DNA of 32,670 nt from Alphaproteobacteria bacterium (GTDB lineage Bacteria > Pseudomonadota > Alphaproteobacteria > Sphingomonadales > Emcibacteraceae): assembly GCA_024280095.1 (NCBI GenBank), contig JAJRQU010000221.1, positions 1 to 32,670 of the forward strand, given 5' to 3'. The first letter of the stretch is position 1, and every line of letters starts with the position of its first letter. The position numbers and the translations under genes were made by a program. This document shows, piece by piece, positions 302-15,737 of the stretch. The notes beneath the pieces were generated by a model. The model saw nothing but the letters and a program-made list of their open reading frames with translations, was not told where the DNA came from and did not search any database.

Positions 302-313
302 TTACTTATATTC
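282..313. repeat. 13-bp tandem repeat over the regulator stop codon
   Basis: Bases 282-313 repeat with a period of exactly 13 (about 2.5 copies; unit ATTCATTACTTAT in one phase). The repeat covers the stop codon (302-304, read on the minus strand) of the NIT-Crp/Fnr gene. Slippage here would change only the last few residues. Confidence 0.7.
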
Positions 314-1888
314 TGGTCCAACTTCCTGGTCGCAATCGGGATTAGGGCATTCGGGCGTGTTATGTTTTGAACAGACTGCCGCAAGGTCATGGTCGCAAAA
401 ACCGCAAAGTGCGCTGATTTTAGGAAGAATCACAGAATTCTTATTTATTTCAAAACCATTTTCCTTGAATTTTTTTAACGTGCGGGAAAATGTTTCCGGT
501 TTCATATCGAGATAGGAGGCAATGAGCGACTTATCATAGGGCAGTTCAATAAGATCCGGCACTTTCCCTTGATCCAACAACAGTTTCAGCAAAAACCATC
601 CGACGCGTTCCGCTGCGGGTTTCAGGCGGATATTCTCGAATTCCTGAATTAAGCTATGGGAATGTTTGGAGATGCCGTCCAATACCCTGAGCGCGAGTTC
701 GTTATGCAGCTTTATTTTTTCACGAATAATGGGCGCGGGAAAAGTTAAGATAACAGATTCTTTGACCACTTGCGCGCTGACCGGGTAATTGGCATTCAGG
801 AAAACAGCCGATTCGGCGACCATATCGCCGCTGGACAGCATTTGCAAAACAGTTTCATGGCCGCTTGAGGTGCCCTTGAAGAGTTTCACCCAACCGCTCA
901 GGACGATGTGAAGCCGGCTGGAAACCTCGCCCTCCAGAAACAGAAGGTTACCCTTTTTATATGTCCGAACCTGCGCATGTTGTAATAGGTCAGACAGGAT
1001 ATTTTCTGGCAAATTGATAAAGAAGGGCATTTCTTCGATAAAGGCTCTTTGCTGCGCATTGATGCCTTCGGCAGCGCGCGTGACATTGATTTGGGTTGCC
1101 TGCGAAGGTATAATTTCTGGCACGTTATTTTTCGGAAGTGTTTTAATTAACTTCTCTTCTACCTTTTTCATCAGGTTCATTTGCTCTGAGGTCATTGCGA
1201 ACCAATATTCTGGAGCAAGTTTAGAGACGGAAACTTTATTTCCCTTTTTCAAATCATCATGAACTTCAGAAAGTTCGCGCACGGCCGCGCCCTTCATAAG
1301 GGAGTTATATATTTCTTTTTGCTGGTCATTGGCCATGGCAAAAAAAGTGCGTTTAAAACTATCTTGCTCGGAAATAAGAAACCGAAAACGGTCAAGAAAT
1401 TCCCGATTGTCAAAGGATTGTGTGACCAGGCCACGGACGCCAAGCGCCCTTTCCCGGCCATATTTTTCTTTAAGTTGTAAAAAATATGAATAGGCACTGA
1501 CTTTTGCGGAATCATTTTCCTTATTAAATAAAGCCATAAGAACCATAATGTCCATTAGGGGACTGATGACGTTATGGCTGTAGCCACTGATGATCTCTGT
1601 CGGCGTGAATTCAAGATTGAGTATTTTGTTTCTACGGGATTTAACGGTTTCGGAATTATCGAGCACAGTTTCCATCTTTTGGAGAAGCTCTCTATCGAAG
1701 GTCTCGTCTTTATACCATTTCTTTAATTCCAGGCGAATATTCTCAAAGGCCGCTTGACTTCTGTCAAATACCGCAAGCATTTCTTTTTTAAAAAGCTGTC
1801 CGTGGCTGCTGACAAAAAACACAGCGCATCCCCGTTCTGCCTGCATTTCATGCAGGGCGCTGCCAAGATAAAGAAGAGTTTTATTCAT
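302..1888 (-). CDS. NIT-domain Crp/Fnr fusion regulator, likely nitrate-responsive
   Basis: A 528-residue protein about twice the usual Crp/Fnr length. Residues 1 to about 245 match the NIT nitrate/nitrite-sensing domain, with the typical early QAERG motif and helical character. NIT domains usually sit in membrane receptors, but no membrane segment is visible here. Residues about 285-400 form a cyclic-nucleotide-binding-like beta-roll and about 420-485 a Crp-type helix-turn-helix. The recognition helix carries PETFSR (E465, S468, R469), the ExxSR pattern FNR uses to read TTGAT half-sites. The tail holds five cysteines (C495, C498, C506, C514, C519), spaced like an iron-sulfur or metal site; the Bacillus subtilis Fnr cluster is likewise C-terminal. 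It is divergent from narK1, so control of the nar genes is inferred. The domain calls are firm; the ligands are not proven. Confidence 0.85.
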   Translation of the reverse strand: MNKTLLYLGSALHEMQAERGCAVFFVSSHGQLFKKEMLAVFDRSQAAFENIRLELKKWYKDETFDRELLQKMETVLDNSETVKSRRNKILNLEFTPTEIISGYSHNVISPLMDIMVLMALFNKENDSAKVSAYSYFLQLKEKYGRERALGVRGLVTQSFDNREFLDRFRFLISEQDSFKRTFFAMANDQQKEIYNSLMKGAAVRELSEVHDDLKKGNKVSVSKLAPEYWFAMTSEQMNLMKKVEEKLIKTLPKNNVPEIIPSQATQINVTRAAEGINAQQRAFIEEMPFFINLPENILSDLLQHAQVRTYKKGNLLFLEGEVSSRLHIVLSGWVKLFKGTSSGHETVLQMLSSGDMVAESAVFLNANYPVSAQVVKESVILTFPAPIIREKIKLHNELALRVLDGISKHSHSLIQEFENIRLKPAAERVGWFLLKLLLDQGKVPDLIELPYDKSLIASYLDMKPETFSRTLKKFKENGFEINKNSVILPKISALCGFCDHDLAAVCSKHNTPECPNPDCDQEVGPEYK

Positions 1889-2053: not shown

Positions 2054-2103
2054 GCAGCATAAGGGAATTTAATAAATGTAATTTTTGTTAAAAGGATGTG
2101 GTT

Positions 2104-3426
2104 ATGCATATTGCAAATGTAACCGGGGGAGAACAAAAACAGGCTTTGACGGCAAGTACGCTGGCTTTTACGGTTTGTTTTGCGGTTTGGACAATTTTCT
2201 CCATCATTGGTTTGAAAATCAAAATGCAGTTGGGCCTTACGGACACAGAATTTGGCATTTTGGTGGCAACCCCCATATTAACCGGCTCATTAAGCCGGAT
2301 TTTTTTGGGGGTATGGGCGGATCAATATGGCGGGCGTGTTATTTATACCTTTCAGATGATCGTGACGGCTCTGGCGGCCTTTCTTTTGACTAAAGTTACA
2401 ACCTACCCGATGTTTCTTGTGGCGGCGCTTGGTGTTGGCCTTGCCGGCGGTAGTTTTGCGGTGGGAATTTCTTATGTATCCACATGGTACCCCAAAGAAC
2501 GTCAAGGCACAGCGCTTGGCATTTTTGGTATGGGTAATGTCGGTTCGGCAGTCACCACTTTTGGGGCGCCTTTTCTGCTCATTCTTATGGATGGACAATG
2601 GCAGGGGGTGGCGCAAATTTATTCTGTTGTTCTGTTGATCACAGCCATATTGTTTTACGTTTGTACCAAAGATGATCCCGCGCTTCGTGATCGCCGTGAG
2701 AAAGGCATCCGCCACGCGACATTTTTTGAGCAAATGGCCCCCCTGAAGAATATGCAGGTATGGCGTTTCTCGCTCTATTATTTCTTTGTTTTCGGGGCAT
2801 TCGTGGCTTTGGCCCTTTGGTTGCCGCATTATTATATTGGGGCTTACGGCCTTGACATTAAAACAGCCGGCATGTTGACCGCGGCCTATGCGCTTCCGGG
2901 CAGTGTGTTTCGGGCCTTGGGGGGATGGTTGTCAGATAAGATAGGCGCCAGAAGAGTGATGTATTGGACCTTCAGCGTTTGCGTTGCCTGCACATTCATT
3001 TTGTCATATCCCGCGACGGATTATACCGTGGCGGGCATTGATGGCCCCATAAGTTTTAATATTACTATTCCCCTCGGGCTGTTTGTGTTTTTAACCATTG
3101 TGCTTGGTTTCTTTATGTCTCTGGGCAAGGCGGCGGTTTATAAGCATATTCCGGTTTATTATCCGGGCCATGTGGGGTCTGTTGGTGGTGTTGTTGGCAT
3201 GATTGGCGGATTGGGCGGATTTTTTCTGCCGATTACTTTTGGCGTTATGAATGACTTGATCGGGGTTTGGACAAGCTGTTTCATGCTGCTCACCATTTTG
3301 ATCGGCATTGCCTTGATCTGGATGCATTTTGCCATTGTCCGTATGGATCGCCGGGATATGCCAGGGCTAAAAGGCCCGCGCTATTTACCGGAGCTGGATG
3401 GCATTAATAATGAGAAACAAGCCTGA
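2104..3426 (+). CDS. narK1: Nitrate/nitrite transporter, NarK1 type
   Basis: A 440-residue, 12-helix major facilitator protein of the nitrate/nitrite porter family in the inner membrane. Both family signatures are visible: GIFGMGNVGSAVT in the first half and the glycine-rich VGSVGGVVGMIGGLGG in the second. The short cytoplasmic N-terminus and sequence type fit NarK1, usually taken as a proton-linked nitrate importer. I chose ATG 2104 because AAGGA (2092-2096) is well spaced for it; the in-frame GTG at 2098 overlaps that site too closely. It is the first gene of the nar operon, followed by narK2 after a hairpin. Direction of transport is family knowledge. Confidence 0.9.
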   Translation: MHIANVTGGEQKQALTASTLAFTVCFAVWTIFSIIGLKIKMQLGLTDTEFGILVATPILTGSLSRIFLGVWADQYGGRVIYTFQMIVTALAAFLLTKVTTYPMFLVAALGVGLAGGSFAVGISYVSTWYPKERQGTALGIFGMGNVGSAVTTFGAPFLLILMDGQWQGVAQIYSVVLLITAILFYVCTKDDPALRDRREKGIRHATFFEQMAPLKNMQVWRFSLYYFFVFGAFVALALWLPHYYIGAYGLDIKTAGMLTAAYALPGSVFRALGGWLSDKIGARRVMYWTFSVCVACTFILSYPATDYTVAGIDGPISFNITIPLGLFVFLTIVLGFFMSLGKAAVYKHIPVYYPGHVGSVGGVVGMIGGLGGFFLPITFGVMNDLIGVWTSCFMLLTILIGIALIWMHFAIVRMDRRDMPGLKGPRYLPELDGINNEKQA

Positions 3427-3505: not shown

Positions 3506-5122
3506 ATGGCGAAAGATATCAGCGGATGGAATCCCGAAGATCCTGACCAATGGGAAAAAACGGGAAAAGCGATAGCCACGAGAAATTTATGGATTTCCAT
3601 ACCCAGTCTTTTATGTGGATTTGCGGTTTGGTTATATTGGGGCATCATTACGGTTCAGATGCTTAATCTGGGTTTTCCCATTGCCAAGGGGGAACTTTTT
3701 ACCCTGATGGCCATTGCGGGCTTGACCGGAGCCACCCTTAGAATTCCCAGCACCTTTTTTATTCGAATTGCCGGCGGGCGGAATACGGTCTTCTTTACCA
3801 CGGCATTATTGATGATACCGGCCATTGGCACCGGATTTGCCTTGCAGGATATCAATACGCCCCTATGGCAGTTTCAGCTATTGGCCTTTTTATCTGGTTT
3901 GGGCGGCGGTAATTTTGCCTCTTCCATGTCCAATATCAGCTTTTTCTTTCCGAAAAAAATTCAAGGATACTCTCTTGGCATGAATGCCGGACTGGGTAAC
4001 TTTGGGGTAACAACCATGCAAATTCTGGTGCCATTATTTATGACGTTTGGTATTTTTGGCGGTGCGCCAATGGAGTTGGTGAATACCAGTGGTACGTTGA
4101 TAGGTAAAATTCCGGCTGGTACGGAAACTTACATTCACAACGCAGGTTTTGTATGGTTGTTATTCCTTGTTCCCCTGGCCTTTGCCGGCTGGTTTGGCAT
4201 GAATAATATTACGGATGAACATGTGTCGCCCGATGTCGGTAATCCCATGAGTGTTTTTGTGAAGATTTCCTTCATGTTGTTCTTGGGTTTTGTGGCGGCG
4301 GCTTGCGGTCTGTGGCTTATGTTGCCTGAAACAACATCGGGGTTTCCCACATCTGGTTTTGGATTAAGCAAATGGCTGGTGCTGCCTATGGTGATTATTC
4401 TGACGGTATTCTTGTTGAAGATGATTCCGGGCCAAATCGGTGGTAATTTGAAACGCCAATATAAGATTTTCAATAACAAACATACATGGGCGATGACCGT
4501 GATTTATACCATGACTTTTGGATCATTCATTGGTTTCGCGGCGGCCTTTGGTTTGGCCATTAAAGTGATATTCGGGTATCAGCATATCATGGTGGACGGA
4601 ATTATGACCCATAATATTGTTAACCACAATGGCCCAAGTGCTTTGATGTTTGCCTGGACCGGGCCTTTTATCGGGGCGTTGATCCGTCCCTTTGGCGGCA
4701 TGCTGTCGGACAAGTTTGGCGGCGCCCGGGTGACCCAATATATCTCTATTGTTATGGTGGTCTGTGCCTTGGGTGTGGCGTATTTTATGCAGCAGGCCTA
4801 TGCCTCTGCGACGCCGGAACAGTATTTTATACCTTTCCTGACCTTGTTCCTCATTCTTTTTGCCGCAACAGGGATTGGCAACGGGTCGACTTTTCGCACC
4901 ATTGCCATGGTTTTTGATAAAGAACAGGCGGGCCCTGTGCTGGGCTGGACTTCCGCTGTGGCGGCTTACGGCGCGTTTATCATCCCAAAAGTTCTGGGCG
5001 AAGAGATCAAGTCAGCAACGCCTGAATATGCCCTTTATGGTTTTGCCATATTCTATTGCATTTGCATCGTTATCAACTGGTGGTTTTACTTGCGCCCCGG
5101 CGCTTATGTGAAAAACCCTTAA
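3506..5122 (+). CDS. narK2: Nitrate/nitrite antiporter, NarK2 type
   Basis: A 538-residue major facilitator protein of the same porter family as the gene before it, but a different subtype. It has a longer charged N-terminus (about 25 residues before the first membrane segment) and an enlarged central region near residues 190-320. Signature stretches include GLGGGNFASSMSNISFFFP and GMNAGLGNFGVTT. NarK2 proteins typically exchange nitrate for nitrite during respiration. Tandem narK1-narK2 genes ahead of narG, sometimes fused as in Paracoccus, are common in denitrifying proteobacteria; here they are separate. ATG 3506 follows a purine-rich AAGGATAGG. The exact exchange mode is inferred. Confidence 0.9.
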   Translation: MAKDISGWNPEDPDQWEKTGKAIATRNLWISIPSLLCGFAVWLYWGIITVQMLNLGFPIAKGELFTLMAIAGLTGATLRIPSTFFIRIAGGRNTVFFTTALLMIPAIGTGFALQDINTPLWQFQLLAFLSGLGGGNFASSMSNISFFFPKKIQGYSLGMNAGLGNFGVTTMQILVPLFMTFGIFGGAPMELVNTSGTLIGKIPAGTETYIHNAGFVWLLFLVPLAFAGWFGMNNITDEHVSPDVGNPMSVFVKISFMLFLGFVAAACGLWLMLPETTSGFPTSGFGLSKWLVLPMVIILTVFLLKMIPGQIGGNLKRQYKIFNNKHTWAMTVIYTMTFGSFIGFAAAFGLAIKVIFGYQHIMVDGIMTHNIVNHNGPSALMFAWTGPFIGALIRPFGGMLSDKFGGARVTQYISIVMVVCALGVAYFMQQAYASATPEQYFIPFLTLFLILFAATGIGNGSTFRTIAMVFDKEQAGPVLGWTSAVAAYGAFIIPKVLGEEIKSATPEYALYGFAIFYCICIVINWWFYLRPGAYVKNP

Positions 5123-5153: not shown

Positions 5154-8100
5154 ATGAGCCATTTTCTAGATAAATTAACCTTCTTTACAAGAAAACGTCC
5201 TGAGGTATTTTCAGACGGCCACGGCATTACCACAGAAGAAGACCGTGGATGGGAACGCACATACCGGGGACGTTGGGCGCATGATAAGGTCGTGCGGTCT
5301 ACGCACGGCGTAAACTGCACAGGATCATGCAGTTGGAAAATTTATGTCAAAGGGGGTTTGGTCACTTGGGAAACCCAGCAAACGGATTATCCCCGTACCC
5401 GCCCTGACTTGCCTAATCATGAGCCGCGTGGCTGCGCAAGGGGGGCGAGCTATAGCTGGTATTTATATAGTTCGGCGCGGGTGAAATATCCCATGATCAG
5501 AAGCCGCTTGCTGAAGCTGTGGCGGGCGGCAAAAGATGTGGCTCATGATCCGGTTATTGCCTGGGCAAATATTGTTGAGGATCAGGAGAAAGCCAAAAGT
5601 TATAAGCAAATACGCGGCCTTGGCGGCATGGTTCGGGCCTCGTGGGACGAGGTGAATGAGATTGTTGCAGCGGCCAATATCTATACCGCCAAGACTTATG
5701 GCCCAGACCGGATCATTGGCTTTTCGCCCATTCCGGCCATGTCCATGGTTTCTTATGCGGCGGGATCACGCTATCTATCCCTTATCGGCGGTACCAGCAT
5801 GAGTTTTTATGACTGGTATTGTGATTTGCCGCCTGCCTCACCGCAGGTTTGGGGGGAGCAAACCGATGTGCCGGAAAGCGCCGACTGGTATAATTCCTCT
5901 TATATTATGGCTTGGGGATCCAATGTGCCTCAGACCCGTACGCCGGATGCCCATTTCTTTACCGAAGTGCGCTATAAAGGCACCAAAACCGTGGCCGTCA
6001 CACCGGATTACAGCGAGGTCGCCAAACTAAGCGATATATGGCTTAATCCCCGTCAGGGAACGGACGCGGCGATGGCGATGGCGATGGGGCATGTGATCCT
6101 GAGCGAATATCATGTGAATGCGCAAAGCGAATATTTTGACGATTACACGCGGCTTTATTCTGATATGCCGTTTCTGGTGCAGATTGACAGTCAGGACGGG
6201 GTTTATGTGGCGGGCCGCACATTACGGGCTTCTGATTTTGAAGATAATCTGGGTCAGGAAAATAATCCGGAATGGAAATCGGCCGTGATTGACGCCAATA
6301 CCAATGAAGTGGTGATTCCAAACGGTACCATTGGTTCCCGCTGGGGCGAAGATGGCAATTGGAATCTTGAATCCAAGGACCTGCAGAATGATCATGAAAT
6401 CTGGCCCCAGAAATCATTGGTGAAAAACCATGACGAGGTCTTGTCCGTGGGATTTCCCTATTTTGGCAATCTGAAAAATGATCAACCAATCTTTAAAGCC
6501 ACGGATCATGACAGTGTTTTATTTCATAATATTCCGGTTCGGAAAATTAAAACCCGTGACGGCGATAAATATGTTGCCACGGTATTTGATTTGATGATTG
6601 CCAATTATGGGGTGGATAACGGTCTGGGCGGTGATAACACGGCGAAAAGTTATGATGAGGATAAACCCTATACCCCGGCATGGCAGGAGAAAATAACCGG
6701 CGTATCCCGAGAAAAGGTGATCAAGGTTGCCCGCGAATTTGCGGAAAATGCCGATAAAACACGCGGACGATCCATGATCATCATCGGGGCGGCCATGAAC
6801 CATTGGTATCACATGGATATGAATTATCGCGGGGTGATCAATATGCTGGTTATGTGCGGCTGCGTTGGTAAATCCGGCGGCGGCTGGGCGCATTATGTGG
6901 GACAGGAAAAATTGCGCCCGCAAACCGGTTGGGCGCCTCTGGCCTTTGCCCTTGACTGGCATCGCCCGCCGCGTCAGATGAATTCAACTTCTTTCTTCTA
7001 TAGCCACTCAAACCAATGGCGATATGAGAAGTTGGGCGTGGATGAAATATTGTCCCCCCTTGCGGATAAGAAGAAATGGCAGGATTATTCCCTGATTGAC
7101 TGTAATGTGCGTTCTGAAAGAATGGGCTGGCTGCCTTCCGCGCCGCAGTTGGAGGAAAATCCTCTGGAGATCACCAAAAAAGCCAAAGCTGCGGGCAAGC
7201 CGACCGCAGAATATATTGCGGGCCGCTTGAAAGACGGCTCTTTAAAAATGTCGTGCGAGGATCCGGATAATCCGAAGAACTTCCCGCGTAATATGTTCAT
7301 TTGGCGGTCTAATATTCTGGGGTCCAGCGGCAAGGGCCATGAATATATGCTGAAACATCTTCTGGGCACCCAGAATGGTGTCATGAGCGAAGATATTGGA
7401 CAGTTGGGCATACAAAAACCAAGCGAAGTCGTCTGGCATGACACCGCGCCGGAAGGCAAGCTTGACCTTGTGGTAACCCTGGATTTTCGTATGTCAACGA
7501 CCTGCCTCTATTCTGACATCGTACTGCCCTCTGCCACATGGTATGAGAAGAACGACCTGAATACGTCGGACATGCATCCCTTCATTCACCCCCTGAGCCG
7601 CGCTGTAGACCCCGCATGGGAAAGCCGCAGCGATTGGGATATCTATAAAGGTCTGGCGGAGAAATTCTCGGAACTCTGCCCCGGACATCTGGGTGAAGAA
7701 ACCGATGTGGTTGCCGTGCCGATCCTCCATGACACGCCCGGTGAATTAGGACAGGGACTGGATGTGAAGGAATGGAACAAAGGCGAAATTGAGGCCATTC
7801 CCGGCAAAACCATGCCGTCTTATATTGAGGTGGTGCGGAATTATCCGGATACCTATAAAAAATTCACCGCCCTTGGGCCGCTTATGACCAAAGTCGGTAA
7901 CGGCGGGAAAGGCATCGCGTGGAATACGGAGCCTGAATATAAATTCCTTGGGGAATTGAACAGGGTTGTTCTTGATGAAGGTGTTTCAAAAGGGATGCCT
8001 TGCATAGAAACGGATATTGATGCCACAGAGGTTATTTTATCTCTGGCCCCTGAAACCAATGGTCAGGTGGCCGTGAAGGCATGGGCCGCGCTGGAAAAAA

Positions 8101-8924
8101 TCACCGGCCGTAAGCATCAGCATTTGGCTTTGCCCAAAGCGGACGAGAAAATTCGCTTTCGGGATGTTCAGGCCCAGCCCCGCAAGATTATCTCTTCGCC
8201 CACATGGTCAGGGATTGAAGATGAACATGTGAGCTACAACGCGGGCTATACCAATGTTCATGAGTTGATCCCCTGGCGCACCCTGACCGGGCGGCAGCAA
8301 TTCTATCAGGATCATAGCTGGATGCGTGATTTTGGGGAGGGATTCTGCGTCTATAAACCGCCGATTAATACCAAGACAACAAAACCGGTTGAGACCTTAA
8401 AGGGTAATGGTAATCCCCAGATTGCCCTGAACTGGATCACGCCGCATCAGAAATGGGGCATCCACAGCACCTATTCAGAAAATCTGTTGATGCAGACATT
8501 GTCGCGGGGCGGCCCTATCGTCTGGCTCAGTGAGGTTGATGCCCGGAAAATCGGGGTTGAGGATAATGACTGGATCGAGCTTTATAATGTGAATGGTGCC
8601 ATCGCCTGCCGCGCTGTTGTTTCGCAGCGGGTCAATGAGGGCATGTGCATGATGTATCACGCTCAGGAGAAAATCATCAATACCCCCGGCGCAGAAACGA
8701 CCGGCAAGCGGGGCGGTATTCATAATTCGGTGACCCGCGCCGTGGTCAAGCCGACCCATATGATTGGGGGCTATGCTCAATTATCTTACGGGTTTAATTA
8801 TTACGGCACGGTGGGGTCAAACCGCGATGAATTCGTCATTTGCCGCAAAATGGATAAAGTGGATTGGATGGACGAGCCGGCGGACGGTGTCTCTGGCAAC
8901 CTTGATCATGAGGAGTTAGTATAA
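5154..8924 (+). CDS. narG: Respiratory nitrate reductase alpha subunit NarG
   Basis: A 1256-residue catalytic subunit carrying molybdo-bis(MGD), which reduces nitrate to nitrite on the cytoplasmic face of the membrane. The N-terminal FS0 iron-sulfur site is complete: H51, C55, C59 and C94, the first of these being the histidine ligand typical of NarG. The molybdenum ligand aspartate is D224, in WYCDLPP. Long stretches are nearly identical to what I recall of Escherichia coli NarG, and the length is normal (about 1250). No twin-arginine signal is seen, as expected for membrane-bound Nar. It lies 31 bp after narK2 with only a weak ribosome site, and its stop overlaps the narH start by one base. 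Confidence 0.97.
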   Translation: MSHFLDKLTFFTRKRPEVFSDGHGITTEEDRGWERTYRGRWAHDKVVRSTHGVNCTGSCSWKIYVKGGLVTWETQQTDYPRTRPDLPNHEPRGCARGASYSWYLYSSARVKYPMIRSRLLKLWRAAKDVAHDPVIAWANIVEDQEKAKSYKQIRGLGGMVRASWDEVNEIVAAANIYTAKTYGPDRIIGFSPIPAMSMVSYAAGSRYLSLIGGTSMSFYDWYCDLPPASPQVWGEQTDVPESADWYNSSYIMAWGSNVPQTRTPDAHFFTEVRYKGTKTVAVTPDYSEVAKLSDIWLNPRQGTDAAMAMAMGHVILSEYHVNAQSEYFDDYTRLYSDMPFLVQIDSQDGVYVAGRTLRASDFEDNLGQENNPEWKSAVIDANTNEVVIPNGTIGSRWGEDGNWNLESKDLQNDHEIWPQKSLVKNHDEVLSVGFPYFGNLKNDQPIFKATDHDSVLFHNIPVRKIKTRDGDKYVATVFDLMIANYGVDNGLGGDNTAKSYDEDKPYTPAWQEKITGVSREKVIKVAREFAENADKTRGRSMIIIGAAMNHWYHMDMNYRGVINMLVMCGCVGKSGGGWAHYVGQEKLRPQTGWAPLAFALDWHRPPRQMNSTSFFYSHSNQWRYEKLGVDEILSPLADKKKWQDYSLIDCNVRSERMGWLPSAPQLEENPLEITKKAKAAGKPTAEYIAGRLKDGSLKMSCEDPDNPKNFPRNMFIWRSNILGSSGKGHEYMLKHLLGTQNGVMSEDIGQLGIQKPSEVVWHDTAPEGKLDLVVTLDFRMSTTCLYSDIVLPSATWYEKNDLNTSDMHPFIHPLSRAVDPAWESRSDWDIYKGLAEKFSELCPGHLGEETDVVAVPILHDTPGELGQGLDVKEWNKGEIEAIPGKTMPSYIEVVRNYPDTYKKFTALGPLMTKVGNGGKGIAWNTEPEYKFLGELNRVVLDEGVSKGMPCIETDIDATEVILSLAPETNGQVAVKAWAALEKITGRKHQHLALPKADEKIRFRDVQAQPRKIISSPTWSGIEDEHVSYNAGYTNVHELIPWRTLTGRQQFYQDHSWMRDFGEGFCVYKPPINTKTTKPVETLKGNGNPQIALNWITPHQKWGIHSTYSENLLMQTLSRGGPIVWLSEVDARKIGVEDNDWIELYNVNGAIACRAVVSQRVNEGMCMMYHAQEKIINTPGAETTGKRGGIHNSVTRAVVKPTHMIGGYAQLSYGFNYYGTVGSNRDEFVICRKMDKVDWMDEPADGVSGNLDHEELV

Positions 8925-10474
8925 TGAAAATTCGTGCTCAGATTGGCATGGTCCTGAATTTGGACAAATGCATAGGGTGTCACACCTGTTCGGTAACCTG
9001 TAAAAATGTATGGACATCTCGCGCGGGTGTTGAATATGCGTGGTTTAATAATGTTGAATCCAAACCGGGCGTTGGCTATCCCCGGGATTGGGAAAACCAG
9101 AATAAATGGAACGGCGGCTGGATGCGCCTTGGCAATGGAAAGCTTAAGCCCAAGATCGGCGGAAAATTCAGGGTTCTGGCAAAATTATTCGCCAATCCTG
9201 ATTTGCCGGAAATTGATGATTATTATGAGCCTTTCACCTTTGAATATGACCGGCTTCAGAAATCACCAGAGGTTAAAACGCCGCCCACAGCCCGTCCGCA
9301 TTCCGCCATTACCGGCGATGTGATGGATAAGCTGGAATGGGGCCCTAATTGGGAAGAAATTCTGGGCGGTGAATTTTCCAAACGGTCAAAGGATTATAAT
9401 TTTGGCCAGATGGAAAAAGAAATATACGGCGAGTTTGAAAATACATTCATGATGTATTTGCCGCGCCTGTGTGAACATTGCCTGAATCCGACCTGTGCGG
9501 CGGCCTGTCCCAGCGGCGCCATATATAAACGCGAAGAAGATGGTATCGTGCTGATCGATCAGGATAAATGCCGGGGCTGGCGCATGTGTGTCAGCGGCTG
9601 TCCTTACAAGAAAATCTATTTCAACTGGGACAGCGGAAAATCTGAAAAATGTACATTCTGCTATCCGCGCATTGAGGCCGGAGATCCGACGGTTTGTTCC
9701 GAAACCTGCGTTGGCCGCATTCGTTATCTTGGCGTGATGCTCTATGATGCGGATCGTATATCAGAGGCCGCGAGCGCCGAGGATGTGGAAGACCTATATC
9801 AATCTCAATGTGATATTTTCTTAGACCCCCATGATCCTGAAGTCATTGCTCAGGCCAAAAAAGACGGCGTGCCGGATAGCTGGCTTGCGGCGGCGAAAAA
9901 CTCGCCGGTTTATAAAATGGCGATGGACTGGAAGGTTGCCTTCCCGCTTCATCCGGAATATCGCACGCTGCCCATGGTTTGGTATATTCCGCCATTGTCG
10001 CCCATTCAGTCCGTCATGGAGGACGGCAGACTGGAAAAAAGCGGTGTCATCCCCGATGTTCAGGATCTTCGTATTCCTGTGAAATATCTGGCCAATATGC
10101 TGACGGCGGGTAAGGAGGAACCTGTGGTTCATGCCTTGGAAAGAATGCTGGCAATGCGGGCCTTCATGCGCGAGAAAACGGTCGAAGGGGTTACTGATCT
10201 GGCCATATTGGAACGGGTTGGTTTGAATGAGAAAACGCTGGATGATATGTACCGGATAATGGCGCTTGCCAATTACGAAGACCGCTATGTCATTCCCAGC
10301 AATCACCGGGAATATGCCGGGGAGACACCCTTTGACAATGATATTGCTTTCGAGCAACGCAGCTCTTGCGGTTTTACCTTTGGCAATGATTGCGGCGGGG
10401 GCGGGGAGACCCGAAAAAACCTGTTTGGCAATTCAACCCATAAAAATACCATGAGCGGAAAAGTGAGGAGTTAA
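8924..10474 (+). CDS. narH: Respiratory nitrate reductase beta subunit NarH
   Basis: A 516-residue electron-transfer subunit that carries four Fe-S clusters between NarI hemes and NarG. The first ferredoxin-like motif, CIGCHTCSVTCKNVW, is near residues 18-30. CEHCLNPTCAAACPSGAIY and CRGWRMCVSGCPYKK follow in the middle; tryptophan replaces a cysteine in the latter, which gives NarH its [3Fe-4S] cluster. CTFCYPRIEAGDPTVCSETC completes the set. The length is normal. The ATG overlaps the last base of the narG stop, implying coupled translation. The C-terminal region has extra cysteines, including CGFTFGNDCGGGG. Confidence 0.97.
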   Translation: MKIRAQIGMVLNLDKCIGCHTCSVTCKNVWTSRAGVEYAWFNNVESKPGVGYPRDWENQNKWNGGWMRLGNGKLKPKIGGKFRVLAKLFANPDLPEIDDYYEPFTFEYDRLQKSPEVKTPPTARPHSAITGDVMDKLEWGPNWEEILGGEFSKRSKDYNFGQMEKEIYGEFENTFMMYLPRLCEHCLNPTCAAACPSGAIYKREEDGIVLIDQDKCRGWRMCVSGCPYKKIYFNWDSGKSEKCTFCYPRIEAGDPTVCSETCVGRIRYLGVMLYDADRISEAASAEDVEDLYQSQCDIFLDPHDPEVIAQAKKDGVPDSWLAAAKNSPVYKMAMDWKVAFPLHPEYRTLPMVWYIPPLSPIQSVMEDGRLEKSGVIPDVQDLRIPVKYLANMLTAGKEEPVVHALERMLAMRAFMREKTVEGVTDLAILERVGLNEKTLDDMYRIMALANYEDRYVIPSNHREYAGETPFDNDIAFEQRSSCGFTFGNDCGGGGETRKNLFGNSTHKNTMSGKVRS

Positions 10475-10477
10475 GCG

Positions 10478-11185
10478 ATGAAAACCTTTAAAATTTTAGG
10501 GTTGCTGCTGTCATATCCTAAGGAAGATTTAATAGAGCATCTGGATGATTTGGGGCAAGTGATCGTGGCTGAACGCCTCCTGCCTGCCCGGCAGATCAAA
10601 AAAATTGTAAAATTTATCGAGGACATGAAAACGCAGGATATTTATGTGCTTCAGGAAAATTATGTCGAGTTATTCGATCGGGGGCGGGCTCATTGTCTGC
10701 AATTGTTTGAACATATCCACGGCGAAAGCCGCGACCGGGGGCAGGCCATGGTTAATCTGGCCGAAGCCTACGGGGAAAAAGGATTATATGTATCGGCAGG
10801 GGAGCTACCGGATTATCTGCCATTATTTCTGGAATATCTTTCCTTATGTTCTGCCAAGGAGGCTCTTGAAATGCTGGGCGATCCCATCAATGTCATTGCC
10901 ACCATCGGGGTGAAATTGAAAAAACGAAAATCATCTTATGCGGTAATTTTCGAGGCCCTGGAATCCCTGTCAAAAGTTAAGCCTGATGCCGATATGATTG
11001 CGCTTGTCCGGTTAGAGCCTCTCGTGGAAATGAGCCATGATGACATTGATGCAGAGTGGGAAGAGGCCAATGCCTTTGACAATAGTGATGTGGACGGGGC
11101 GGATTGCGGCAGCTGTGATATTTTCCCGAATGCGACAGAAGAGATTAAAAAATTCAATGATAAAAACATGAATGGAGGTCAGTAA
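10478..11185 (+). CDS. narJ: Nitrate reductase molybdenum cofactor assembly chaperone NarJ
   Basis: A 235-residue all-helical chaperone of the NarJ/TorD family. It binds apo-NarG and allows molybdenum-cofactor and FS0 insertion before the complex docks on NarI. The sequence contains the family-typical LPDYLPLFLEYLSL segment around residues 110-125 and an early LSYP motif. The C-terminal tail is acidic, with GADCGSCDIFPN. It starts 3 bp after narH and ends 1 bp before narI. It is not a subunit of the final enzyme. Confidence 0.95.
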   Translation: MKTFKILGLLLSYPKEDLIEHLDDLGQVIVAERLLPARQIKKIVKFIEDMKTQDIYVLQENYVELFDRGRAHCLQLFEHIHGESRDRGQAMVNLAEAYGEKGLYVSAGELPDYLPLFLEYLSLCSAKEALEMLGDPINVIATIGVKLKKRKSSYAVIFEALESLSKVKPDADMIALVRLEPLVEMSHDDIDAEWEEANAFDNSDVDGADCGSCDIFPNATEEIKKFNDKNMNGGQ

Positions 11186-11186
11186 T

Positions 11187-11888
11187 ATGCCAGAAACAAC
11201 ATCATTTCTTCATCATCTGGCCTTTGGCATCTATCCCTATATTGCCGTGTTGGTGATGGTTTTGGGGTCGATCCTGCGTTATGATCGTGATCAATATAGC
11301 TGGAAGGCAAATTCCAGCCAGCTTCTGCGATCAAAGGGCATGAGGCTCGGCAGTAATTTATTCCATATTGGTATTATCCTGCTGTTTTTTACCCATCTTG
11401 TCGGGCTTTTGATGCCTGAATCTGTCTATCATCTGTTTATGACGACCGAGGCCAAGCAAATGATGGCCATGATCGGCGGCGGTATTCTGGGCGGAATATG
11501 TTTTATCGGCCTGACGATTTTGATCGTGCGGCGTATGACCGACAAGCGCATTCGTGCCACCAGCAAAACGTCTGACCTGCTGCTGTTATGGATGCTGTAT
11601 ATCCAGCTGATTCTGGGTTTGATATCCATATATTATTCCGCGCAGCATCTGGATGGCTCCTCTATGGTGGCCTTGGGGAACTGGGCGCAGCATATCGTGA
11701 CGTTCCGCAGCGGAGCCGCCGATTTTATTATCCATGAGCCATGGGTTTTCAAGGCACATCTATTGCTAGGGCTGACCATATTTCTGGTCTTTCCTTTCAC
11801 CCGCCTTGTGCATATGTTAAGCGTGCCGGTGAAATATATTTTCCGGACGGGCTATCAGATTGTCCGTAAACGTGGCCGAGGATATTGA
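11187..11888 (+). CDS. narI: Respiratory nitrate reductase gamma subunit NarI (cytochrome b)
   Basis: A 233-residue inner-membrane diheme cytochrome b that oxidises quinol and passes electrons to NarH. Five membrane segments are evident. The heme ligands are in the expected places: H60 and H70 in FHIGIILLFFTH, and H191 and H209 in KAHLLLGLTIFLVFPFTRLVH. I chose ATG 11187 because GGAGG lies about 9 bases ahead; upstream in-frame codons overlap narJ. Ubiquinol is the likely donor, which links it to the ubiTUV genes just downstream. Confidence 0.95.
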   Translation: MPETTSFLHHLAFGIYPYIAVLVMVLGSILRYDRDQYSWKANSSQLLRSKGMRLGSNLFHIGIILLFFTHLVGLLMPESVYHLFMTTEAKQMMAMIGGGILGGICFIGLTILIVRRMTDKRIRATSKTSDLLLLWMLYIQLILGLISIYYSAQHLDGSSMVALGNWAQHIVTFRSGAADFIIHEPWVFKAHLLLGLTIFLVFPFTRLVHMLSVPVKYIFRTGYQIVRKRGRGY

Positions 11889-11913
11889 GCCAAGGATATT
11901 GAAAGGAATATTA

Positions 11914-12363
11914 ATGCCGGTATTTGTCAATAATTGTGAAATCTCTGACGAGGAAGTTCACGCAGAAATGATCAATCATCCCGCACCCGACGTGGATGCG
12001 GCGCGGCTTGAGGCCGCCCGCGCGCTGGTGGTTCGGCAATTGCTGCTTGAGGATGCGGCCGAGCGGGAGCTTATCAGCTTTAAAGATATCTCAGGCCTGG
12101 AAGAAGAACAGGGTGAGGCCGTCATAATCCGGCTTTTGGATGAGGTCATCACCACGCCAGAAGCGGATTCTGAAACCTGCGCGCGCTTTTATGAACAGCA
12201 TAAGGCCAGTTTTCTGGATAAAAAGACGGATAAAATTCTGGCCTATGAATTGGTTGAACCGCATATCTCACAATATCTGGAAGACAGAGCCTATCACGCC
12301 GCCTTCCACGCCTATCTTGATGTTTTGATGTCAAAAGCCAAGATTGTTGGTCTCGCAGCATAA
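11914..12363 (+). CDS. NifM/parvulin-like protein lacking the isomerase domain
   Basis: A 149-residue soluble protein. In many nar operons the gene after narI encodes a NifM-like peptidyl-prolyl isomerase of roughly 280-300 residues. This protein resembles the flanks of that family: an N-terminal helical segment with VDAARLEAARALVVRQLLLEDA, the TCARFYEQHKASF helix that normally leads into the parvulin domain, and the C-terminal ISQYLEDRAYHAAFHAYLDVL helix. About 90 residues expected between the last two are missing; only a short linker joins them. The frame is open throughout, so this is a clean internal loss, not a frameshift. It may act as a pure chaperone for the reductase. ATG 11914 follows AAAGGA. 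The function is inferred. Confidence 0.65.
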   Translation: MPVFVNNCEISDEEVHAEMINHPAPDVDAARLEAARALVVRQLLLEDAAERELISFKDISGLEEEQGEAVIIRLLDEVITTPEADSETCARFYEQHKASFLDKKTDKILAYELVEPHISQYLEDRAYHAAFHAYLDVLMSKAKIVGLAA

Positions 12364-12431: not shown

Positions 12432-13094
12432 TTATGTCAATTCTTTGAATTCTTCTGACGTTTCGTTATATTCCAGCAAACGACCTTCGCCGATGTCATA
12501 ATGCCAAGCATGGATTTTAAGGCGATCCTGCGTCATGGCTTCTTTAACCCAAGGGAATGTGACAAGATTTTTGAGGGATATCAGGCTCGCGCGTTGTTCG
12601 CATATTTTTGCGCGGCTTTCGATGTCGGCAGCGGCTTTTTCCTGATCTGTGAAGACGGCGGCATCATCAACAATCTGCATCCAGGGCCGGATGAAGCTGT
12701 AATGTTTGGCCGGCTCGGGATTTTCTGGTTTTGGATTATCGTGATCTGCCATAAGTGCGCGAATGCCGCCGCAACCGCTATGGCCCATAATGACGATATG
12801 TTCGACTTTCAAATGAATAACGGCAAATTCAATGGCGGCACTGGTGCTGTGATGGGTATTGCCGCTTTCATGGTAAGGCGGCACCAGATTGGCCACATTA
12901 TTCACCACAAAAATATCGCCCAGACTGGCTCTGGTGATGATTGCCGGATTAACGCGGCTGTCACTACAGGCGATGATCATGACTTTGGGGCTTTGGCCTT
13001 CTTTGGCTTCACTGAGCCAAGCGGAATTTTCCTGTGATAGATATTGGCTCCGGAAGGCTTTATACCCTTCAAGGAGCTTTGCGTAAGATGCCAT
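12432..13094 (-). CDS. Beta-class carbonic anhydrase
   Basis: A 220-residue cytoplasmic zinc enzyme that interconverts carbon dioxide and bicarbonate. The zinc ligands C43, H105 and C108 are present, in IACSDSR and GHSGCGG, together with the catalytic D45-R47 dyad. The length is typical. It converges on the nar operon and lies 35 bp downstream of ubiV on the same strand, so it may be co-transcribed with ubiTUV. A role in supplying bicarbonate or handling carbon dioxide from 2-oxoacid decarboxylation is conjecture. Confidence 0.93.
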   Translation of the reverse strand: MASYAKLLEGYKAFRSQYLSQENSAWLSEAKEGQSPKVMIIACSDSRVNPAIITRASLGDIFVVNNVANLVPPYHESGNTHHSTSAAIEFAVIHLKVEHIVIMGHSGCGGIRALMADHDNPKPENPEPAKHYSFIRPWMQIVDDAAVFTDQEKAAADIESRAKICEQRASLISLKNLVTFPWVKEAMTQDRLKIHAWHYDIGEGRLLEYNETSEEFKELT

Positions 13095-13129
13095 AATTTG
13101 AGAAATCCTATAATAAATTTTGTGTAAAT

Positions 13130-14026
13130 CTAAATGCTGATTTGTTTCAAGCCAGCAACATTATGATAATAGCCATTGGAAAAGCAGGGCGCAATCATTT
13201 CCGCTTCAAGCAGATCGTTTACTTGGTCGATGGCGATTTTTTCATCAAGGAAATCCCGGGTTAACTGGCTGATTTTCACCATATTCACATCATGGGGCGA
13301 CAGGCGAAAATTTTGGATGCCCATGGCGCAAAGCTCCGGCAATTCCGCCATAAGATTACAATAGCTATAAGACAGGGTCTGCAAGCCATTAATGGCCAGA
13401 AATCGCTGGCCATCCATGGTATCCACGGTCAAACCATTCGGATCTTTTGCGCAAACATATTGACAGCCATCTTTATGGATTTTATGGGCGCGGGCATGAT
13501 AACAACGGGCGGAAATGGCCAAGGGCAGACGCCCAAAAGTCTGCACTTCCAATTCTGCTTTAGCAACCTTGGCAAGGGCGCGAAGTGAGGCTGCGGGCAG
13601 CTCCGGCGGCAGAGAAATCCTTATTGCCCCGTGATCCTCGTAATATTTTAAGCTCGCTTCATTATAGATATTGATGAAAGGGCCGATAGCATGATCCTGA
13701 TCTTGCAACAGGCTTACCGCAGACAGGTCGTTCCCCTCAATCAAATAATCTTTTGCCATGGCGGTGATGTCCCGCGTTGCTGTCATATCCCGGTCATCCA
13801 GAACCAGCATCAGGCTGGATAAAATCACCTTCTTCCCGGCTCTTTCCAGTCGATCTATCACCTCGGGCAGATAATTTTTTCCGGCCATTCTTTTGCCGCA
13901 GACCACTTCGCCCAGATATACATGGTCGATCGGCGCTTCATCGGCGATGGCAAAATAAAAATCGCGGATTTTATCATCTTCCCAATGAAATAATAAGGGG
14001 CCAAGGGAGAGTTTGCCAAATTTCAT
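13130..14026 (-). CDS. ubiV: Oxygen-independent ubiquinone biosynthesis protein UbiV
   Basis: A U32-family protein of 298 residues that works with UbiU to hydroxylate the ubiquinone ring without oxygen. The four Fe-S ligands match the Escherichia coli pattern: C43 (VVCGKR), then C175, C188 and C192 with the spacing C-x12-C-x3-C. The start opens MKFGKLSLGP, close to the E. coli MKYSLGP. I chose ATG 14026, which overlaps the ubiU stop as TGATG; an upstream ATG at 14035 is also possible. It is last in ubiT-ubiU-ubiV. It was long annotated as a collagenase-like peptidase, but no protease residues are evident. Confidence 0.92.
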   Translation of the reverse strand: MKFGKLSLGPLLFHWEDDKIRDFYFAIADEAPIDHVYLGEVVCGKRMAGKNYLPEVIDRLERAGKKVILSSLMLVLDDRDMTATRDITAMAKDYLIEGNDLSAVSLLQDQDHAIGPFINIYNEASLKYYEDHGAIRISLPPELPAASLRALAKVAKAELEVQTFGRLPLAISARCYHARAHKIHKDGCQYVCAKDPNGLTVDTMDGQRFLAINGLQTLSYSYCNLMAELPELCAMGIQNFRLSPHDVNMVKISQLTRDFLDEKIAIDQVNDLLEAEMIAPCFSNGYYHNVAGLKQISI

Positions 14027-15009
14027 CACATCCATTTTCTATTATAGGCTCCTGTTGTATTTTGCCCGCCTTCGGACAGGTTATCCATGTCTATGATCAG
14101 CCTTTCGCCGCGCATCGCGGCATCAATGGCTTTGCGGAAATTTGCCGTCACTTGGCGCACATAAGCCTTGCTGCGCTGTCGGCCCTCAATTTTCAAGGCG
14201 CTGACGCCGGCTTCCATCAATTCCGGTAATATGCGGGTGACATTCAGGCTGGTGGGTTCTTCAAACAGGTAACCGGTTTCCTCATTGGCCGTAAAACGCC
14301 CCTTGCACAGGGTGGGGTATCCGGCTTGCTCGCGGGGGCCAAACTTATTGATGGTAAAATCCGCCAGATTTGTTTTGAGATCCTGACCCTGATGGATATA
14401 TGTCACATGGCTGGCGGGGGAACATACGCCGTTCATATTCGGAGATTTTCCCGTGATATAGGATGACAGGCTGCACCGGCCTTCTGCCATGGGACACATG
14501 CCGCCAAAGGCAAAAACTTCTGTTTCTATGTCAATTTTCTGATTAATGTCCTGAATTTCCGGCAGGGTAAGAACGCGGGGCAGAACAACGCGCCGAATGC
14601 CGAATTCCCTGACATAATGATTGATGGCCGCGGCATTGGACGCGGATGCCTGCACAGATAAGTGCAATCTCAGATCAGGATGGGTTCGCGCCGCATAATC
14701 AAGCAAACCAATATCGGCCAATATAATGGCATCAACATTTAATTTTGCCGCATTATCCACGGCATTGATCCACGGCTGGCCGCGCCCGGCAGCAGCATAA
14801 GTATTGACGGCCAACAGGACTTTTGCGCCTTTTGCATGGGCATAATCCAAACCCTCGGCCAGTTCATCAACGGAAAAATTCAAGCCCGGGAAATTGCGGG
14901 CATTGGTTTCATCGCGAAAGCCCAAATATACCGCATCCGCGCCTTCATCCACAGCAACGCGCAGGGCCGCAGGGGTGCCCGCCGGGCATATAAGCTCTAA
15001 TTTTGTCAT
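14026..15009 (-). CDS. ubiU: Oxygen-independent ubiquinone biosynthesis protein UbiU
   Basis: A 327-residue U32-family protein, partner of UbiV in the anaerobic hydroxylation steps of ubiquinone synthesis. The Fe-S cysteines C172, C179, C196 and C235 sit in MCPMAEGRC, NGVCSP and TLCKGR. They are offset by a constant three residues from the E. coli positions I recall (169, 176, 193, 232). The N-terminus LELICPAGTPAALRVAVDEGADAVYLG is a classic U32 start. It overlaps ubiT by 4 bases. Prephenate has been proposed as the oxygen donor in the studied system. Confidence 0.93.
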   Translation of the reverse strand: MTKLELICPAGTPAALRVAVDEGADAVYLGFRDETNARNFPGLNFSVDELAEGLDYAHAKGAKVLLAVNTYAAAGRGQPWINAVDNAAKLNVDAIILADIGLLDYAARTHPDLRLHLSVQASASNAAAINHYVREFGIRRVVLPRVLTLPEIQDINQKIDIETEVFAFGGMCPMAEGRCSLSSYITGKSPNMNGVCSPASHVTYIHQGQDLKTNLADFTINKFGPREQAGYPTLCKGRFTANEETGYLFEEPTSLNVTRILPELMEAGVSALKIEGRQRSKAYVRQVTANFRKAIDAAMRGERLIIDMDNLSEGGQNTTGAYNRKWM

Positions 15010-15704
15010 ATCTTTGTTTTCCGGCTCAGGCTTTGCAGGCGGTTTTGGGTTTTGGTCAGCATCTTGTCCAGATGATCCAATCTGTTTCGGAGGTTTTGAT
15101 TGTCATATTCCAGCCCCTCGCAACGTTTTGACAGGGGAAGGGTTATGGCCTGGCCGATTAAGCCCATATTGCGCGACAGGTTTTGATACAGACGCTCGCC
15201 AACATTTAAGACGGCCTTTGCCGGCCCTGCCAACAGGCCAAAGGAGGCAATGATTTCTGCCCGAAGATCAATATCGTCGCTGTCGACAGCATTGCGCAGG
15301 GTCAATAAGGCCGCCGTATCGCCTTCTATTGTCAAATGGCGGGAGAAAAATAAGGCATCGCCGTCCAGCTTTCCGTCCATCATATCCATAAGCGATAAAA
15401 GTGGCCCGCAGATTGTCACATCTGCAAGACCCATAAATTCATCCTCAATTTGGCAGGACATATGATTTTTTTGAATGGTCAGGCGAAAGTCATGGGGAAA
15501 ATCCGTTGGCCGGATGAGAAATGTCGTGCCCGCGATCTGTTCAAGCCGGGCAAGAATAGCGGGATGGTTTTTCTGAATGTGATCTGCGGTATATTGAAGC
15601 CATCGATTGAGCGGCGCTCTGGGCAATGGTTTGATCATCAAGCCCGCCATTAACAGGGGCGAGAACGCGTCATTTGCGTTATGATTATCTGGCTCAAGGG
15701 ACAT
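15006..15704 (-). CDS. ubiT: SCP2-domain ubiquinone biosynthesis accessory factor UbiT
   Basis: A 232-residue protein with an SCP2 lipid-binding domain, which holds isoprenoid quinone intermediates during anaerobic ubiquinone synthesis (the anaerobic counterpart of UbiJ). The SCP2 core covers about residues 30-130, with the typical TFLIRPTDFPHDFRLTI and LADVTICGPLLSLMDMMDG segments. The C-terminus ends in a likely coiled coil (LEYDNQNLRNRLDHLDKML). The frame extends to a TTG at 15719, but ATG 15704 gives a normal start. It is first in ubiTUV, directly behind an FNR-type promoter. Confidence 0.85.
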   Translation of the reverse strand: MSLEPDNHNANDAFSPLLMAGLMIKPLPRAPLNRWLQYTADHIQKNHPAILARLEQIAGTTFLIRPTDFPHDFRLTIQKNHMSCQIEDEFMGLADVTICGPLLSLMDMMDGKLDGDALFFSRHLTIEGDTAALLTLRNAVDSDDIDLRAEIIASFGLLAGPAKAVLNVGERLYQNLSRNMGLIGQAITLPLSKRCEGLEYDNQNLRNRLDHLDKMLTKTQNRLQSLSRKTKI

Positions 15705-15737
15705 ATTCAGCTTTTTCAAATTGTTGTTTTTCGGGCA

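Follow-up and report, generated by a model that had tools for sequence, protein, structure and literature searches.

A family of NIT–CRP/FNR fusion proteins with a cysteine tail, linked to respiratory nitrate reductase genes in alpha- and gammaproteobacteria

Organization of the locus

The window analysed here is the whole 32,670-nucleotide stretch of contig JAJRQU010000221.1 from an alphaproteobacterium of the Emcibacteraceae (assembly GCA_024280095.1). A regulator gene on the minus strand (302–1888; 528 amino acids, ATG start) is divergent from a plus-strand cluster that begins with two genes for MFS transporters (2098–3426 and 3506–5122) and continues with narG (5154–8924), narH (8924–10474), narJ (10478–11185) and narI (11172–11888). 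Both transporter genes are presumably narK, a name given on the basis of position. The narG product bears PF14710 and Molybdopterin domains and matches annotated nitrate reductase alpha subunits; narH, narJ and narI were recognized by PF14711, PF02613 and PF02665, respectively. The regulator gene thus stands divergent from narK, which is the position of NarR/FtrB genes. Between it and narK lies the FNR-type box TTGATCAAAGTCAA (2012–2025, no strand assigned), and about 60 bp before the regulator start there is a second dyad, ACAAG-N4-CTTGT (1948–1961, no strand assigned).

Adjoining narI, genes on the opposite strand (12432–15719) code for a beta-carbonic anhydrase, two proteins of the U32 family and one SCP2 protein; the U32 and SCP2 genes resemble ubiVUT, the genes for O2-independent ubiquinone. 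This naming rests in part on PMC7713065 (articles given by PMC number are cited here from excerpts of their text). U32-like ORFs of similar look were noticed by eye near nar in another locus (L199). A 167-amino-acid ORF after narI (11860–12363) had no Pfam match and resembles part of a protein of 262–275 amino acids that follows narI elsewhere and is annotated in Paracoccus as a peptidylprolyl isomerase; it may be a shortened form of that protein.

Domain architecture of the regulator

The first-pass annotation had described a soluble protein encoded at 302–1888, without naming a strand. The ORF is real and lies on the minus strand, and residues E465, S468 and R469 as well as cysteines 495, 498, 506, 514 and 519 occupy the positions it had given them. 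A chance ORF is ruled out by the conserved family to which the protein belongs, whose members, 94 to 31% identical, have the same architecture. No transmembrane-like stretch was found in the window protein (KD maximum 1.28), which supports its description as soluble and rules out a membrane receptor.

The N-terminal part is an all-helical NIT domain (amino acids 12–250; 1139–1855, minus strand), recognized by Pfam (PF08376, E 3.4e-34, 119.7 bits against a cut-off of 24.9), AlphaFold2 and Foldseek. A model of this part alone (amino acids 1–255) reached a pLDDT of 94 and had two matches under E 0.001 in the PDB, both of them chains of NasR (4akk; E 4.6e-7, TMq 0.78). The C-terminal half comprises a cNMP-binding domain, that is, the CRP/FNR sensor domain (PF00027, E 1e-17; amino acids 308–392; 713–967, minus strand), and a Crp-type helix-turn-helix with the ExxSR recognition motif (PF13545, E 1.8e-9; amino acids 427–495; 404–610, minus strand). 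Both matches exceed their cut-offs and place the protein in the CRP/FNR superfamily; the 50 structures among the matches listed for the whole model were all CRP/FNR proteins, the best being 3fx3. The protein ends in a cysteine tail (L494–C519; 332–409, minus strand).

The whole-protein AlphaFold2 model, built with 70 rows, had a mean pLDDT of 82; the blocks that cover the tail had values of 78 and 73. The halves are joined by a poorly predicted linker (amino acids 251–277; 1058–1138, minus strand; mean majority conservation 0.30), in which residues 255–274 fell under a pLDDT of 50. Since this linker is predicted to be disordered, no relay between the NIT and CRP halves is visible in the model.

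Distribution of the fusion and its linkage to nar genes

A search of 396 genomes of the order (E 1e-40 or better) yielded 41 matches, of which 39 were fusions and two (G412 and G429) covered the CRP half only; the set A1 omits these CRP-only matches and two sequences with undetermined residues (G486, G491). In a sample of the class (385 genomes) seven genomes matched, the fusions being those of the window's own genome and of G294. From the named collection, 373 stretches were taken by pattern; 260 of them encoded a relative, and the best 80 of the 260, corresponding to 79 loci, were kept. The NIT half was matched in 72 of these best 79 loci. Alignment A2 (n=70) contains 69 of the 72 NIT-bearing loci and the window; L119 was excluded for undetermined residues and L160 and L169 because contig ends truncate them, as were the seven loci without NIT. 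The NIT, cNMP and HTH models were all matched at E 0.001 in each of its 70 members.

Carriers of the fusion include, among alphaproteobacteria, Emcibacter, other Emcibacteraceae, Kordiimonas, Robiginitomaculum, Hyphomonadaceae and Asticcacaulis, and also gammaproteobacteria such as Exilibacterium and Alcanivoracaceae MAGs. No relative was found in viral contigs, and no location on plasmids reached 80% coverage of the query. One genome encodes two fusions (G440; L210 10058–11641 and 13152–14720), one divergent from narK and the other adjoining a hemN-like gene.

At least one nar-type gene was present in the fetched stretch at 65 of the 72 NIT-bearing loci among the best 79, and NarG or NarH at 57 of the 72; when only loci with at least 5 kb on both sides are counted, nar genes accompany 42 of 44. 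Seven NIT-bearing loci were devoid of nar: five had at most 3.3 kb upstream, and the remaining two, L132 and L177, had about 10 kb on both sides. L177 retains an intact nitrate motif, yet lies away from nar. At L135 the evidence for nar is a short NarK piece only. In L178 and L184 a solitary narI-like gene immediately precedes the fusion in the same orientation, the rest of nar being absent from the stretch.

Co-occurrence in the order points the same way. NarG (E 1e-200) was detected in 83 of the 396 genomes; all 39 fusion genomes possess it, and none of the 313 NarG-less genomes encodes a fusion (Fisher p 5e-31, with counts that are not independent, as the sequences are related). The fusion is absent from 44 of the 83 NarG-bearing genomes, many of them in family f2. 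What had been described from a single locus is hence more general: a nar-linked fusion family of alpha- and gammaproteobacteria.

The nitrate motif of the NIT domain

Two half-motifs were found in the NIT domain. The first, Q16-x-x-R19 (1832–1843, minus strand), is aligned with QxxR of NasR, and in the second, G144-x-x-R147 (1448–1459, minus strand), E146 and R147 align to E175 and R176 of NasR, which are predicted participants in its nitrate pocket (PMC7496416). According to PMC8199190, the two arginines of the G-x-x-R motif are retained in NasR and a glutamine stands in place of one glycine; the pattern seen here agrees with that statement. In A2, Q16 and R19 are each present in 70 of 70 members, and G144 and R147 in 69 of 70 each, the sole exception being L132.

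It could be argued that the NIT domain is degenerate, has lost nitrate binding and serves as a dimerisation aid only, as its mean majority conservation (0.46) is below that of the CRP half (0.58–0.70). Retention of both half-motifs in 69–70 of 70 proteins, down to 31% identity, makes this hardly credible, and the only aligned member with a broken half-motif is located away from nar. Taken together, the motif, the NasR fold, the nar linkage and the co-occurrence with NarG make it well supported that the protein is a putative nitrate sensor for nar.

The region between the regulator gene and narK

Box regions were defined as the 59 regions, the window included, in which a NarK1 match is divergent from the regulator gene. 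The form TTGATN4ATCAA, fixed beforehand, occurred at 9 or 10 of 10 letters in 44 of the 59, against 2.0 expected from shuffles. An exact TTGAY-N4-RTCAA, a form picked after these results had been seen, was present before narK in 53 of 54 regions (five regions longer than 600 bp were left out; shuffled mean 0.05), and 49 of the 54 had exactly one box. A consensus of TTGAc/t-N4-g/aTCAA is published for Fnr of Sphingopyxis granuli (PMC7713065). As the same box is thus described for that Fnr, and the window's own genome encodes an FNR, the box is not assignable to one regulator; it may be FNR's instead.

A palindrome scan of 44 less redundant regions with the box masked gave TTTTA-N8 in 6, ATTTT-N12 in 4 and ACAAG-N4 in 4 regions, the shuffle maximum being 2–4; apart from these two AT-rich palindromes and the ACAAG-N4 dyad, which is confined to the level of a genus, none in the 44 regions came up to the shuffle maximum. 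The perfect ACAAG-N4-CTTGT dyad, of 5-4-5 geometry, was found in 7 of the 59 regions, exclusively in close relatives. Its CRP-like geometry and its place ahead of the regulator gene would fit a repressor relieved by nitrate, or an autoregulator, for which 1948–1961 would be the protein's own operator. We consider this distinctly improbable, because the exact dyad is restricted to close relatives while the nar linkage spans two classes, and because proteins of the NarR and FtrB type at that position are described as activators (PMC7713065, PMC8139620).

The cysteine tail

Four of the five C-terminal cysteines that the first-pass annotation had singled out are indeed conserved, in the form CX2CX7CX7C: C495 in 69 of 70 members of A2, and C498, C506 and C514 in 70 of 70 each. 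The fifth, C519, occurs in only 28 of 70 and is lineage-specific, so that a set of five conserved cysteines was rejected. Nar genes are nevertheless present in the stretch of L131, which is without C495. D499 (69/70) is no more than a candidate ligand; apart from the four cysteines, 15 of 20 positions in 491–514 show conservation of 0.19–0.61, and the ExxSR residues E465, S468 and R469 are each present in 70 of 70.

It is plausible that the tail forms a low-oxygen-sensing Fe-S centre, with zinc as the alternative. In favour of oxygen sensing, the four cysteines show the conservation expected of ligands, and the first three, CX2CX7C, have the spacing of the N-terminal triad in the genome's own FNR. 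A Cys-x-x-Cys knuckle is also able to serve zinc; common zinc ribbons have two such knuckles. The spacing in the tail differs from that of Bacillus subtilis Fnr, which uses CX2CX4C plus Asp141 (PMC3520743), and this counts against oxygen sensing by the tail. The genome's own FNR, which offers oxygen sensing at the same kind of box, counts against the need for it.

Relatives without the NIT domain

The same tail is present in CRP proteins devoid of NIT. Among 16 NIT-less tail-bearing proteins, ten were accompanied by nar (L186 included, though it is 7 kb off), two by cbb3 oxidase genes (L200 and L188; the labels were checked for L188 and for COX1 of L200) and four by neither (L182, L202, L243, L257). 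Of tail-less CRP proteins, 5 of 23 were found with nar (the second copy in L201, L250, L254, L258 and L259). Presence of the tail was scored by pattern, which also admitted odd forms, namely L245, in which the second of the canonical cysteines is missing, and L188, whose cysteines are spaced differently and which does not belong to the tail clade. Existence of such NIT-less regulators indicates that the tail is independent of NIT. In three further loci (L264, L265, L256) CRP proteins have a different cysteine-rich C-terminus, and the stretch of L264 contains hemN-, ccoG- and ccoP-like genes.

A tree was built from 65 rows (30 of the 70 in A2, 15 NIT-less tail rows and 20 tail-less rows); L203, which stands as L132, the split L244, and L247, L248, L249, L253, L260, L261 and L262 were omitted. 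All tail rows except L188 group together, with a support of 93/96 that is below the starred limit. Within them, a NIT clade of 34 rows (97/94) stands beside a NIT-less clade of 10 rows (99/97), and in the latter nar was present in the fetched stretch for 9 of 10. NarR-type proteins form a separate clade (98/96). Four NIT-less rows (L182, L200, L202, L257) are nested inside the NIT clade and are most simply read as losses of NIT. All of them keep the tail, and none has nar in its stretch, compared with 42 of 44 for NIT-bearing loci.

A similar situation was met within the order. In G412 and G428 the homologue adjoins a carbonic anhydrase gene (by Pfam for G412), away from nar; that of G412 is without NIT, and that of G428, which is L132, keeps NIT with G144 changed to C and R147 to F. 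These genomes and G469 have another nar cluster (NarG 70–71%) with a divergent NIT-less tail-bearing regulator. Integrity of NIT thus tends to follow nar linkage, with counter-cases in L177 and in G469, whose intact fusion is on a contig other than that of its other nar cluster. A single ORF of 973–985 amino acids encodes both narK transporters in this alternative nar cluster (L206 11592–14525, L207 10153–13074, L208 3972–6929).

That the nested NIT-less rows, and L132 with its lost R147, keep the tail and lie away from nar fits the mechanism proposed below. The neighbours of the 16 NIT-less tail-bearing proteins (nar for ten, cbb3 oxidase genes for two), set against nar for 5 of 23 tail-less ones, favour low-oxygen sensing by the tail. 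An alternative explanation would be that the fusion responds to nitrate only and has a structural zinc tail, and that oxygen control is exerted by a separate FNR which shares the box or competes for it, as FnrP and NarR do in Paracoccus. It would be consistent with the CX2CX7C- and ETVSR-bearing FNR encoded in the same genome, with the zinc-holding ability of the knuckle, with the identical consensus of the Sphingopyxis Fnr box (PMC7713065) and with the co-regulation of Paracoccus nar by FnrP and NarR (PMC8139620, PMC4771820). However, the tail has a single CX2C knuckle; it accompanies nar in 9 of the 10 NIT-less sister rows and stands before cbb3 oxidase genes in the nested L200; and with one box in 49 of 54 regions, two regulators would have to share it. 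We regard a zinc tail as somewhat unlikely.

Proposed mechanism

We favour, as probable, a one-component cytoplasmic nitrate-responsive regulator of the divergent narK-narK-narGHJI, in which a metal centre in the tail adds a low-oxygen requirement. Nitrate (or nitrite) would bind between Q16-x-x-R19 and G144-x-x-R147, as in NasR, and this would release or re-orient the CRP/FNR half. The freed half would then activate narK from the TTGAY-N4-RTCAA box by means of the ExxSR recognition helix. The four-cysteine tail beside the helix-turn-helix would hold a metal centre, more likely an Fe-S cluster labile to oxygen or NO than zinc, and full activity would require both nitrate and low oxygen. Such a single-protein gate for nar expression was proposed in the first-pass annotation; its nitrate and nar half is backed by the sequence comparisons given above, and its low-oxygen half is only plausible.

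It is unlikely, in our opinion, that the tail instead senses NO or general redox stress, turning nar off as NO accumulates, while NIT reports nitrate. FnrP, which is an Fe-S protein, is reactive towards NO, and most of the NO formed during nitrate respiration is said to come from nitrate reductase (PMC4771820), which would suit such a role; sequences, however, do not separate NO from O2 sensing.

A more far-reaching form of the favoured reading is offered only tentatively. The protein would be a true two-input gate, with a NasR-type receptor and an oxygen-labile Fe-S cluster on one DNA reader acting at a single narK box, and would take over the joint role of FNR and NarXL, or of FnrP and NarR, in several lineages of alpha- and gammaproteobacteria; NIT would have joined an older tail-bearing nar regulator and been lost again once the gene had moved away from nar. 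Should the tail be a redox centre, a single protein would detect the coincidence of nitrate and anoxia, which could also serve biosensor design. The natural NIT-less relatives are ready-made controls. The family bears on nitrate sensing for respiration in alphaproteobacteria without NarXL.

Comparison with known systems

No mention of a NIT–CRP/FNR fusion was found in the titles and abstract starts listed by searches of open-licence papers, which is weak evidence of absence, and it is absent from the excerpts of PMC7496416, PMC8199190, PMC8139620, PMC12937710, PMC12531629 and PMC9603854. The closest analogue of its sensory half is NasR, the NIT-ANTAR antiterminator of Klebsiella oxytoca (4akk), with which it shares the soluble one-component build, the fold and both half-motifs. 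The output of NasR is an RNA-binding ANTAR domain, whereas that of the window protein is a CRP/FNR DNA-binding half with a cysteine tail; NasR serves nitrate assimilation (PMC7496416), and the window protein sits at respiratory nar. For NasR, the proposal is that nitrate binding relieves an autoinhibition of its RNA-binding half (PMC7496416).

The DNA-binding half has several counterparts. The FNR of the same genome (L190, FnrN-like by spacing; best NCBIfam match FnrL, 179.7 bits, below the cut-off of 300) has an ExxSR helix (ETVSR) and a CX2CX7C triad, but its cysteines are N-terminal and it is without NIT. The window protein is not a canonical FNR/FnrN, as the N-terminal cluster and sensor-domain cysteines are missing and C21 is the sole cysteine outside the tail. 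Fnr of B. subtilis resembles it in the C-terminal cysteine cluster and regulates narGHJI (PMC8139620); since CX2CX4C, taken from the published description of the Bacillus protein, does not occur in the CX2CX7CX7C tail, membership in the Bacillus type was rejected as well. If the gate is real, joint sensing of nitrate and oxygen for nar would be shared with NreA/NreB of staphylococci (PMC8139620), in which a GAF nitrate receptor and an Fe-S histidine kinase are separate proteins with a two-component output, unlike the single protein described here. A NarX-type PilJ domain in the 85%-complete assembly of the window's genome reached only 20.8 bits, below the cut-off of 26.6.

By position, the nearest relatives are NarR and FtrB of Paracoccus and Sphingopyxis, CRP/FNR proteins likewise divergent from narK-narGHJI. 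FtrB of S. granuli is similar to NarR and divergent from narU (PMC7713065), and a response to nitrate or nitrite is reported for NarR-type regulators (PMC8139620, PMC4771820). The mechanism of NarR is called unknown, and an Fe-S cluster is stated for it, in PMC9409073; it is said to be without such a cluster in PMC8139620. The two NarR/FtrB examples fetched have neither NIT nor a cysteine tail and are 28% identical to the CRP half. Membership in this group was rejected, the window protein scoring 114.9 bits against the cut-off of 211 of the NarR/FtrB equivalog NF006901; the protein that occupies this position in Paracoccus alcaliphilus reached 321.9 bits. The fusion family thus occupies the place of NarR as its analogue, with an explicit and testable putative nitrate receptor.
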